Shown: one piece after another, positions 2,527 through 60,746 of the stretch
How positions within the stretch are numbered: position 1 is the stretch's first letter
Layout: each line of letters begins with the position of its first letter
Origin: Emticicia agri
GTDB taxonomy: Bacteria > Bacteroidota > Bacteroidia > Cytophagales > Spirosomataceae
Direction of reading: 5' to 3'
DNA: 64,000 nt
Assembly (NCBI RefSeq): GCF_004168285.1
Contig: NZ_SEWF01000035.1
Coordinates: 1 to 64,000 of the forward strand
Position numbers and translations under genes: made by a program
The notes under the pieces: generated by a model
What the model was told of the DNA's origin: nothing
The model's input: the letters and a program-made list of their open reading frames with translations, nothing else
Databases searched by the model: none

Positions 2527-2540
2527 CCGCGCGGCGGCCG
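2527..2540 (-). repeat. GC-rich 14-bp mini-insert in the central hairpin of repeat B copy 1
   Basis: On the minus strand it reads CGGCCGCCGCGCGG. Removing exactly these 14 bases joins GCCGGA to CTTAAGTCCGGC and restores the perfect 18-bp palindrome GCCGGACTTAAGTCCGGC. The other two copies of the host repeat have an uninterrupted 18-bp palindrome at this place. It differs by one base from the insert at 49436-49449. Confidence 0.75.
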
Positions 2541-2590
2541 CTTAAGTCCGGCGTGGTATGCAAAAAAACATTTGTTAATATAGTCGGCGA

Positions 2591-2605
2591 CCGCGACGGC
2601 GTCCG
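2591..2605 (-). repeat. GC-rich 15-bp mini-insert in the last hairpin of repeat B copy 1
   Basis: On the minus strand it reads CGGACGCCGTCGCGG: the 49436 insert with one extra T. The flanks GTCGGCGA and TTCGCTGAC correspond to the stem of the third hairpin in the copy at 33142-33159. The exact right boundary is unclear by a few bases. Confidence 0.65.
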
Positions 2606-2844
2606 TTTCTATTCGCTGACACTCAGGACGAAAATAATCCCTATCTACATTAAACCAATTGCCTCAAAAACACTCTTTTAATTAGAATTTTACTATTCTG
2701 TTTTTATAATCTACTCATTTTCAGTCAATTAAATCTCTTAACGAATCATTAACAAAACGGCAATAAACTATCGGCTTCTCTTTTACATCTAAGAATCAAA
2801 TAAGTTTAAAAAAACAAAAAATAACAATAACCAGGAATTTCACT

Positions 2845-3344: not shown

Positions 3345-3464
3345 TAGAGTTTTGGTCTGAAACATTCCGGCATTTGATTGGTTGAGTATAAATAATCTGA
3401 GTCTTTTGATTAAGAATAAACAGAGATATGTATCTTGCAAAGCGATTATTCCTATTTCAATTGT

Positions 3465-4349
3465 ATGATAACCCTAACAAATGCTGTTATTAGTGCTACG
3501 ATTAACCCCAAAGGGGCCGAATTAGTAAACCTTATCCATAAAGCCACACAAATAGACTATATGTGGTCGGCTGACCCGGCTTTCTGGGGGAAATCTTCAC
3601 CTGTCTTGTTTCCTGTGGTAGGAGCTTTGAAAGACAATAATTTTATTTATAAAGGAGAAACATACACTTTACCTCGTCATGGTTTTGCCCGTGAGCGTGT
3701 GTTTGAAGTAGAAAGCCAGACAGAAAATAGTGTTACCTTTCTTTTGAAATCTGATGAAGCCTCAAAAAAGGTCTTCCCTTTTACATTTGAATTTCGCCTG
3801 CACTATACTTTAGACGAAAATCGGTTGCATGTGAAATACGAGGTTACCAATACGGGTGATGCTGAAATGTTCTTTTCGGTAGGTGGACACCCGGCCTTTC
3901 GTGTGCCATTAGCAGACGGAACCAGTTATGAAGATTACTATCTGGAGTTTAATGCCGAAGAAGACCTGATGCGCTGGCCTTTGGCTGACGGAGGTTTGAT
4001 AGAGACTATGCCTGAAAAACTACCAGTAAACAATAACCGCATACCCTTAACCAAAGAATTATTTTATCAGGATGCCCTTGTGTTTAAACACCTGCAATCA
4101 GATAGTGTTGTGCTGAAATCTGATAAAACCCATCACCAATTACGGTTTTATTTCAAAGACTTCCCGTTTTTAGGTATCTGGGCGGCAAAAGATGCCGATT
4201 TTGTGTGCATTGAGCCCTGGTGTGGTATTGCAGATAGTGTCAGTCATAACCAGCAACTGACAGAGAAAGAGGGGATAAATCAATTGAATGCAAAAGAAAA
4301 TTTTGAGAGGACTTGGGGGGTGGAGATTGTGCGGTCCGCCGCGCAGTGA
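3465..4349 (+). CDS. Aldose 1-epimerase family protein (LacX-like)
   Basis: Mutarotase-fold protein of about 294 residues, related to the LacX branch of aldose 1-epimerases, which interconvert the anomers of aldoses or sugar phosphates in the cytoplasm. Seen: the N-terminal beta strands (MITLTNAVISATINPKGAELVNL), PRHGFARERVFEV with the conserved His/Arg region, SVGGHPAFRVPL with the second conserved His, and CIEPWCGIADS with the Glu expected to act as catalytic base. The ATG at 3465 is preferred to an upstream TTG at 3435 because the family starts here. The last residues (RSAAQ) are encoded by a GC-rich mini-insert at 4332-4345, so the native C-terminus has probably been replaced. Substrate unknown. 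Confidence 0.85.
   Translation: MITLTNAVISATINPKGAELVNLIHKATQIDYMWSADPAFWGKSSPVLFPVVGALKDNNFIYKGETYTLPRHGFARERVFEVESQTENSVTFLLKSDEASKKVFPFTFEFRLHYTLDENRLHVKYEVTNTGDAEMFFSVGGHPAFRVPLADGTSYEDYYLEFNAEEDLMRWPLADGGLIETMPEKLPVNNNRIPLTKELFYQDALVFKHLQSDSVVLKSDKTHHQLRFYFKDFPFLGIWAAKDADFVCIEPWCGIADSVSHNQQLTEKEGINQLNAKENFERTWGVEIVRSAAQ
4332..4345 (+). repeat. GC-rich mini-insert at the 3' end of the epimerase gene
   Basis: CGGTCCGCCGCGCA matches the family consensus at its left side (CGG, two bases, CGCCGCGC) and ends imperfectly. It encodes the last residues of the epimerase, and the stop follows at 4347-4349. A second insert in opposite orientation lies 20 bases downstream. Confidence 0.6.
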
Positions 4350-4506
4350 TTAGTCTTGAACTGTGCCGCGACGGCGTACCGTTTTACCTGATTTTTGTGA
4401 TTACACTGATTAATAGTTTATCCTTAAAATCATGTTCATAATCAATCAAATCATATAAATCAGGTCAATCAGTTAAATCATAGTTCAAGACATCACAAAA
4501 TCACTC
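4346..4506. repeat. Long imperfect inverted repeat
   Basis: The left part (AGTCTTGAACTGTG, then ACCTGATTTTTGTGATTACAC) is the imperfect complement of the right part (AAATCAGGTCAATCAG, then CATAGTTCAAGACATCAC), around a centre near 4430. The left arm carries a GC-rich insert at 4366-4381 in place of sequence present in the right arm. It fills the 206-base gap between the epimerase and the hydrolase genes. Confidence 0.7.
4366..4381 (-). repeat. GC-rich 16-bp mini-insert in the left arm of the inverted repeat
   Basis: On the minus strand it reads CGGTACGCCGTCGCGG, the longer subtype (two variable bases, extra T). The right arm of the same inverted repeat has AT-rich sequence at this position. 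Confidence 0.65.
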
Positions 4507-17700: not shown

Positions 17701-17778
17701 GTGATAGAATTAATCGTGAATTGTGAATGCGGACGCCGCGCGTCCGCATTCACTAATTCGCAATTAATCACTCATCAC
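17701..17778. repeat. Long hairpin repeat between convergent genes
   Basis: ATTAATCGTGAATTGTGAATG on the left is the imperfect complement of CATTCACTAATTCGCAATTAAT on the right. The apex carries a GC-rich insert (17730-17746). It lies between lpdA and the convergent membrane protein gene and overlaps the stop of the latter; it may serve as a two-way terminator. Confidence 0.8.
17730..17746 (+). repeat. GC-rich 17-bp mini-insert at the apex of the hairpin
   Basis: It begins CGGACGCCGCGCG and ends TCCG, which mirrors its own first four bases (CGGA). Removing the 17 bases joins GTGAATG to CATTCAC, a perfect palindrome at the apex. The first 13 bases are identical to the insert at 49436. Confidence 0.75.
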
Positions 17779-21727: not shown

Positions 21728-21765
21728 CCAACTATGACGGCGAACCGTCATTTATAGTGTTGGCA
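21728..21765. repeat. Palindrome with a short GC-rich core
   Basis: CCAACTAT and ATAGTGTTGG form the outer arms, with TGA and TCA inside. The core CGGCGAACCG (21738-21747) is the left 10 bases of the mini-insert family on the minus strand (CGG-TT-CGCCG), without the CGCGG end. Confidence 0.6.
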
Positions 21766-24774: not shown

Positions 24775-24861
24775 CCCCATCCTAACCTTCCCCAACAATG
24801 GGGAAGGGACAAAAAAAAGCCCCTCTCCCCACAGTTGGGGAAAGGGGTTGGGGTGTGGGGT
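24775..24861. repeat. C/G-tract repeat between convergent genes, uninterrupted copy
   Basis: CCCCATCCTAACCTTCCCC, AACAATGGGGAAGGGAC, an A-run, then CCCCTCTCCCC, ACAGTTGGGGAAAGGGG and TTGGGGTGTGGGG. The two halves pair into a long hairpin with A/T-runs, so it can terminate transcription from both sides (DoxX gene and susD). A related copy at 49370-49465 lies in the same kind of place. Confidence 0.75.
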
Positions 24862-49369: not shown

Positions 49370-49465
49370 CTCACCCTAAATCCCTCTCCCCAACAATGGG
49401 AAGAGGGACTTTTTTTGTTCTTTCCCATTGTTGGGCGGACGCCGCGCGGGAAGGTTAGGATGGGG
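49370..49465. repeat. C/G-tract repeat between convergent genes, copy with GC-rich insert
   Basis: CCCTCACCCTAAATCCCTCTCCCC, AACAATGGGAAGAGGGAC, a T-run, then TTTCCCATTGTTGGG and GAAGGTTAGGATGGGG. The right half is the complement of the start of the copy at 24775, but with 14 bases inserted at 49436-49449. It lies between the symporter and the convergent msrA gene and can act as terminator for both. Confidence 0.8.
49436..49449 (+). repeat. GC-rich 14-bp mini-insert, clean insertion site
   Basis: CGGACGCCGCGCGG stands between CCCATTGTTGGG and GAAGGTTAGGATGGGG. The complement of 24775-24802 has the same two flanks directly joined, so both sides match over 28 bases and exactly 14 bases are extra. 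There is no target duplication beyond a possible one-base G or C ambiguity. Confidence 0.85.
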
Positions 49466-59217: not shown

Positions 59218-59258
59218 GTAGAGACGTACGGTTCGCCGCGCGATTGCAATACGTCTCC
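59218..59258. repeat. Left extragenic palindrome of the IS110 locus (family A) with GC-rich insert
   Basis: The sequence begins GTAGAGACGT and ends ATTGCAATACGTCTCC; bases 59228-59242 (ACGGTTCGCCGCGCG) are a mini-insert. Taking out these 15 bases leaves a perfect 22-bp palindrome from GAGACGTATTG to its mirror. An inverse copy lies at 60707-60746. Confidence 0.8.
59228..59242 (+). repeat. GC-rich mini-insert, left palindrome
   Basis: Core CGGTTCGCCGCGCG (59229-59242), variant with TT as the variable bases and without the last G. With the preceding A it makes the 15 bases whose removal restores the palindrome. Confidence 0.75.
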
Positions 59259-60706: not shown

Positions 60707-60746
60707 GAGACGTATCGCAATCGCGCGGCGAACCGTACGTCTCTAC
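60707..60746. repeat. Right extragenic palindrome of the IS110 locus (family A) with GC-rich insert
   Basis: Inverse copy of 59218-59258 with one base difference (TCGCAAT for TTGCAAT). It contains the mini-insert at 60722-60735 on the minus strand. With the left copy it frames the whole IS110 element, as the two arms of a paired repeat with an element placed in the spacer. Confidence 0.8.
60722..60735 (-). repeat. GC-rich mini-insert, right palindrome
   Basis: On the minus strand CGGTTCGCCGCGCG, identical to 59229-59242. Because both arms have it, it was either present before the pair formed or spread by conversion. Confidence 0.75.

Follow-up and report, generated by a model that had tools for sequence, protein, structure and literature searches.

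A unit of 14–16 bp lies precisely inserted in a wide variety of host sequences, most of them intergenic, in the genome of Emticicia agri (Bacteroidota), is present or missing at the orthologous loci of congeners and, once inside a repeat, multiplies together with its host. The stretch in which it was noticed—64,000 nt of contig NZ_SEWF01000035.1, positions 1 to 64,000, hereafter the window—had been said in a preliminary description to hold a repeated GC-rich mini-insert that enters unrelated host sequences, and the analyses reported here support that claim. We regard the chances that the unit is a non-autonomous mobile mini-element as evenly balanced.

How far does the abundance of the unit depart from chance? 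We defined a strict motif, CGCG-N(0,1)-CGGCG-N(1,2)-CCG, and used the reversed motif as a control. The whole 6.65 Mb genome contains 114 matches to the strict motif (55 and 59 on the two strands) and none to the reversed one, with ~0.17 matches expected from base composition alone; the window, at 39% GC, has seven matches vs. none in 100 dinucleotide shuffles. The frequency is far above what composition predicts, and the first outcome that the preliminary description had named as refuting it did not occur. Within 938,228 bases of the genome, exact copies numbered 67 (control 0) and copies with one mismatch 27 (control 1), and two-mismatch copies were not in excess (34 vs. 59 in the control). 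The unit family has sharp limits and is perhaps of recent origin. Another subtype, CGCTACGGCGAACCG / CGCTACGGCGCACCG, which falls outside the strict motif, occurs in a recurrent CCAAATAATAT..TTTGG host at several G000 loci.

The ends of the unit can be read from a host-anchored scan, which used host flanks alone, did not require the motif and covered the first 22 of 36 host groups. In 15 of these 22, the same position held either a single base or a middle of 15–17 bases, and the difference between the two gives a unit of 14–16 bp; the remaining middles that the scan returned were many and mostly due to chance. Empty and filled forms alternated as C or C-CGCGCGGCG[T/G]CCG-C, as T or T-CGCGCGGCGAACCG-T, and as A or CCGCGACGGCG[G/T]ACCGT. 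Type S, CGCGCGG-CG[T/G/A]-CCGC, has 14 nt and ends in CCGC; type L, CGCGCGG-CG[G/A]A-CCGT, has 15 nt and ends in ACCGT; and in longer forms an additional base follows CGCG, which brings them to 16 nt. The simplest reading is that 14, 15 or 16 nt are placed 3' of a pyrimidine; of 36 host representatives, 30 have C and 4 have T just before the unit. At C..C sites, the final base may be the unit's own or a one-base duplication, either being compatible with the sequences. We rejected a one-base target duplication as the rule, because C..C and T..T sites agree with it and C..T sites do not. Hosts with A in the empty form are likewise incompatible with duplication; in one such host, some of the empty copies have C there instead.

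The copies in the window, together with one empty host, are the following:

2528..2541, plus strand: type S unit CGCGCGGCGGCCGC, inside GCCGGAC/TTAAGTCCGGC, host 2521-2552
2592..2606, plus strand: mixed-form unit CGCGACGGCGTCCGT, with an extra A and a short loop, host GGCGA..TTCTATTCGC
4332..4345, minus strand: one-mismatch copy TGCGCGGCGGACCG, overlapping the end of the open reading frame (ORF) 3435-4349
4367..4382, plus strand: type LA unit CGCGACGGCGTACCGT, inside a CTTGAACTGTG..CTGATT repeat
17730..17746, minus strand: unusual copy, core CGCGCGGCGTCCG preceded by CGGA, flanks GTGAATG and CATTCAC
24775..24802, plus strand: the host sequence of the 49435 unit, here empty
49435..49448, minus strand: type S unit CGCGCGGCGTCCGC, interrupting the 28-mer that is intact at 24775-24802
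59228..59242, minus strand: type L unit CGCGCGGCGAACCGT, inside palindrome 59221-59257, beginning GTAGAGACG at 59218
60722..60736, plus strand: type L unit CGCGCGGCGAACCGT, within palindrome 60707-60743, which repeats 59221-59257 in inverted orientation

Nine occurrences had originally been listed for the window. Seven are exact (2528, 2592, 4367, 17730, 49436, 59229 and 60722), and that at 4332 has one mismatch; the ninth, at 21738, shares only CGGCGAACCG and is not counted. The stretch 21738-21747 lies within TGACGGCGAACCGTCA, a short hairpin that has only the unit core in common with the others, perhaps by chance. Four sites had been taken for clean insertions, and three of them stand: joining the flanks at 49436 gives back the 28-mer found intact at 24775, at 2528 removal of the unit restores GCCGGACTTAAGTCCGGC with its 9-pair stem, and at 59229 it restores the 22-bp palindrome GAGACGTATTGCAATACGTCTC, an 11-pair stem. 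The fourth did not hold up. Removing 17 nt at 17730 leaves GTGAATG/CATTCAC, with 7-bp arms, yet the standard 14-nt unit ends elsewhere; all 17 nt form an inverted repeat, and since four extra bases give this copy its symmetry, it is not a standard insertion. Separately, an IS110-family transposase gene (PF01548, PF02371; 59459-60484, minus strand) lies between two copies, in inverted orientation, of one GTAG-tagged palindrome (59221-59257 and 60707-60743), each of which contains one unit.

Do empty counterparts of the filled sites exist? Flanks were examined at 100 of the 114 sites in this genome, 37 of the 47 in the congener G006 and 2 of the 29 in the congener G007, with the exclusion of sites <60 bases from the end of a stretch and of copies with identical context. 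We searched with the joined flanks of the 139 sites and with 695 control cuts placed 50–140 bases away. An empty homologue was recovered for 123 of the 139 sites vs. 124 of the 695 control cuts (Fisher P ~1e-58), the 18% of control cuts with an "empty" match being background from repeats. G006 and G007 are mostly 80–86% identical to the window over the compared stretch and largely collinear with it, and the orthologous pairs of filled and empty sites are these:

L080 9901 filled, L133 empty: ACAAAG/GACTATTT, exactly 14 nt
L105 9940 filled, L050 empty: exactly 14 nt
L064 9843 and 9959 filled, L098 empty at both
L075 9901 filled, L106 empty
L122 1513 filled, window ~33110 empty: another copy of the 2521-2552 host
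L098 7292 filled, L064 empty: a less clean pair

Orthologous empty sites thus occur in congeners, in place of the uniform occupancy that the preliminary description had envisaged as an adverse result, and clean insertion of at least some copies is strongly supported. This tally leaves aside L047, which could not be aligned; L106 2325 and L120 1533, which are ambiguous; L126/L053, where flanking matches had no alignment between them; and L050 9901 and L102 985, matched on one flank only.

What kinds of sequence does the unit enter? Clustering of flanks by a simple rule, which makes the number approximate, gave 36 host groups across three species, of which 16 have one member and others have been amplified with the unit inside, for example to 13, 12, 11 and 9 copies. 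Hairpins of at least 8 perfect pairs hold 19 of 100 sites, compared with ~2% of nearby and <1% of random positions. The earlier statement that the unit lands in extragenic palindromes is therefore borne out for these sites, at a level above background, and fails for the other 81; it is not a general rule. Other hosts are non-palindromic dispersed repeats, short tandem repeats, and tRNA genes. With ORFs defined as at least 100 amino acids, only 5 of 100 sites in this genome and 6 of 39 in G006/G007 lie within one, several of them near gene ends, vs. 85% of random positions, so the frequent occurrence in coding sequence that would have spoken against the preliminary description was not seen. Of 94 intergenic sites, 61 are closer to a 3' end than to any other gene edge, vs. 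46% at random, and the orientation of the unit relative to the gene with that nearest 3' end is the same in 38 cases and opposite in 23 (raw counts). Several units in G042, whose loci are 54% GC, lie within TTTCAAC-like tandem repeats, and one in Dyadobacter luticola lies within a CACGAATAC repeat (the sole match among 80 named loci). The hosts change from genus to genus.

Insertions also interrupt tRNA genes. A tRNA-Tyr gene of G006 is interrupted by exactly 14 nt where T-stem and T-loop meet (GCATG/unit/TTCGATT/CATGC), and its orthologues in G000 and G007 are empty; a tRNA-Pro(TGG) gene of G007 carries 16 nt at the T-stem/T-loop junction, where G006 is empty. A tRNA-Ser-like gene—our own reading, not called by ARAGORN—has the unit at the same junction in both G000 and G006. 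Because the uninterrupted tRNA gene is the ancestral state, these insertions are gains. That an interrupted gene might be the sole functional copy is ruled out by an intact tRNA-Tyr in G006 and an intact tRNA-Pro in G007. The picture fits a unit that harms what it enters and persists where the harm is tolerated. The tRNA-Tyr and tRNA-Ser-like genes belong to a redundant tRNA gene cluster (L101, G006:C6, 8069-13123; L022, G000:C5), two members of which carry the unit, the former in G006 and the latter in both genomes. Tandem 3' pieces of the tRNA-Pro gene lie beside the full-length gene in L118 (G007:C22, 223-724) and L117 (G006:C1, ~3290), and the insert is present in at least the first piece of G007 and in one of G006.

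How widespread is the unit? Among 11 genomes of the genus, three species have 114, 47 and 29 copies and the other eight have 0–4. In the family, 141 of 200 genomes have a strict-motif match and the others have none. The excess over the control is strong in some, such as G042 (142 vs. 9), G120 (80 vs. 1) and G064 (62 vs. 15), and there is none in others, such as G034 (33 vs. 42) and G150 (25 vs. 26). In a sample of 148 genomes from the phylum, no genome outside the family showed a comparable excess over the control; larger counts there were paired with high controls (149 vs. 73 in G334, 45 vs. 26 in G213), as were those of G284 (38 vs. 19) and G296 (33 vs. 13). In these samples, a clear excess was seen only in one family of the Cytophagales, Bacteroidota. 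A protein search agrees with an Emticicia-like source for the window: one protein is 91% identical to Emticicia sp. 21SJ11W-3, and its other matches come from Runella, Dyadobacter, Arcicella and similar genera.

How might such a unit move? The most far-reaching reading, to which we give a probability slightly short of even, is a self-spreading DNA unit of 14–16 bp that is served by dedicated trans-acting machinery, is joined after a pyrimidine in exposed loops, and has been at work across one Cytophagales family recently enough to have entered spare tRNA genes in single species. In the explanation that we favor, what moves would be single-stranded, with a small hairpin of 3–4 bp (NCGG-loop-CCGN') that has CGC(G) as its 5' tail. 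A trans-acting enzyme would join it after a pyrimidine in momentarily unpaired DNA or RNA, for which hairpin loops, slipped tandem repeats, and the tRNA T-arm are the candidate targets. That hairpins, short tandem repeats, and the T-arm are preferred as hosts points to a target whose bases are unpaired at the moment of joining.

A number of observations weigh against this explanation. The isolated unit folds no better than shuffled sequences (z -1.07 to 0.41), so the hairpin is proposed from the form of the unit and its host preference, and for the L and LA types the best predicted hairpin differs from the one drawn. A compensatory basal pair was considered as proof of the hairpin, with mixed results: the extra A is matched with T in 18 of 18 cases in the genus, a pattern that did not extend to further genera, where A stands opposite T in 9, G in 9, C in 6 and A in 2 cases, at loci picked by the motif with A or T, several of which resemble chance matches in coding sequence of GC-rich genomes. 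No mover was found: in the 11 genomes of the genus, copy number is unrelated to counts of Y1 transposases (Spearman -0.07) and to those of reverse transcriptases. Because many sites belong to host families that have been amplified, the number of independent insertions lies well below that of copies, and 81 of 100 sites lie outside hairpins of at least 8 pairs. Spurious hits occur among the 123 empty matches, as at L124, where the site matched itself. Three pairs of loci are filled in both species (L022/L101, L073/L097 and L003/L103), and diverged copies are present in both members of L075/L106 and L080/L133. Finally, host and unit are missing together from relatives at L082, at window 49436 (the orthologous place in G006 and G007) and at 59229 and 60722, where both flanking palindromes are absent from these two genomes along with the IS110-family gene.

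Y1 transposases and reverse transcriptases were each considered as the mover, and the counts of neither show an association with copy number in the genus. Y1 genes, with all Y1 clades pooled, occur in 163 of the 200 family genomes. Reverse transcriptase genes occur in 6 of the 11 genus genomes, namely the three high-copy species and G001, G003, and G009, which have 0–2 copies. One such gene (PF00078) lies at 16802-18304 of L054, on the plus strand, downstream of a gene of 546 amino acids, and in G006 an open frame of comparable size likewise encodes a reverse transcriptase.

A trans-acting enzyme on a single-stranded intermediate is favored, with two other routes as serious rivals. Template switching in replication or repair could carry the unit between hairpins or slipped repeats with no dedicated machinery. 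Hairpins and short tandem repeats do often serve as hosts, and the 17730 copy resembles an inverted-repeat correction; however, the ends of the unit stay constant across unrelated hosts that share just one target base, the clean filled/empty pairs show no carry-over of flanks, and the unit is limited to one family whereas hairpins are universal. We rate this route as clearly less probable than the favored one, and give about the same probability to RNA-mediated insertion, in which the unit would be joined into RNA or copied from RNA by a reverse transcriptase. The T-stem/T-loop junction has been entered in three kinds of tRNA-like gene, 3' gene ends are overrepresented as nearest edges, and a similar proposal has been made for the GC clusters of yeast mitochondria (PMC4478555). 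Yet the presence of reverse transcriptase genes in G001, G003, and G009 breaks their link with copy number, and the orientations, 38 the same and 23 opposite as raw counts, are set against this route too.

The unit might also have no mobility of its own, a few one-time entries into repeats having been followed by duplication and gene conversion of the filled hosts. Several hosts have indeed been amplified with the unit inside, and congeners have filled sites in common; but the three species hold 36 host groups, nearly half of them single, tRNA genes carry insertions, and other genera have different hosts, so we consider this history quite improbable. Chance GC-rich matches or an assembly artefact can be given next to no credence: motif and control are both common in GC-rich genomes elsewhere in the phylum, but here 114 matches stand against none for the control, empty sites are exact, and the same pattern recurs in G006 and G007, assemblies of ~30 contigs each.

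If the unit is indeed mobile, it ranks among the smallest mobile DNA units on record, and to our knowledge there is no smaller mobile element. The size limit for mobile behavior would then fall to ~14 bp, a length that leaves no room for both ordinary terminal repeats and a body. The window has no match in Rfam, and the unit was not described in the literature searched, a search limited to open access that proves no unpublished status. The preliminary description went further in holding that no bacterial element like it had been described, and here it was mistaken: a kind already on record is the small dispersed repeats (SDR) of cyanobacteria. These repeats of Nostoc and its relatives were reportedly set out by Elhai and colleagues in 2008. 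They are 21–27 nt long, are not known outside a group of cyanobacteria, and have no known mover; SDR4-6 have a common secondary structure with compensatory changes.

How does the unit compare with other short repeats? A repetitive extragenic palindrome (REP) is a 20–40 bp palindrome with a GTAG or CGTC tag (PMC3733652); REP and REPIN elements go with REP-associated tyrosine (RAYT, Y1) transposases, and some GTAG/CGTC elements are themselves inserted in palindromes (PMC3116915, PMC3733652). Like these, the unit is a short extragenic repeat, and its host at 59221-59257 resembles a GTAG-tagged palindrome; unlike them, it is shorter, begins with CGCG, lacks a GTAG or CGTC tag, and has a copy number unrelated to Y1 gene counts in the genus. 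Miniature inverted-repeat transposable elements, at 70–300 bp with 15–30 bp terminal inverted repeats (PMC3733652), differ in that the whole unit here is only 14–16 nt. The repetitive hairpin elements of sponge mitochondria resemble it as repeated hairpins between genes and sometimes in RNA genes, but they belong to an organelle, have larger helices, and form their own type in each lineage (PMC2800124).

The resemblance in form to yeast mitochondrial GC clusters, which the preliminary description had pointed out, is a fair one (PMC4478555). The main cluster there has 42 nt, an AG target that is single in empty sites, and a strong hairpin under constraint. Both are GC-rich palindromic mini-inserts that are filled or empty at homologous positions, both have base changes beside the insert, and for neither is the mover known (PMC4478555). 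The yeast clusters differ in belonging to organelle DNA, in their larger size, and in the AG target, compared with at most one C or T here. They are GC-rich hairpins in AT-rich DNA; the GC-rich unit lies in a 39% GC window and also at loci of 54% GC.

SDR, mentioned in PMC4390886, PMC3116915, and PMC2884548, are the closest known kind: tiny, dispersed repeats of bacteria that sit precisely within other repeats, as is seen here. They are likened to the unit by description and not by sequence, and their length of "some 20 bp" (PMC2884548) compares with 14–16 nt here; they occur in cyanobacteria, and the unit, with its GC-rich core CGGCGN(N)CCG, in a Cytophagales family of the Bacteroidota. On the tests made, the unit cannot be called a member of either SDR or GC clusters. 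With its filled and empty sites, nearly fixed ends, and narrow range, it offers a setting in culturable bacteria where the long-standing question of how SDR and GC clusters move could be put to the test.
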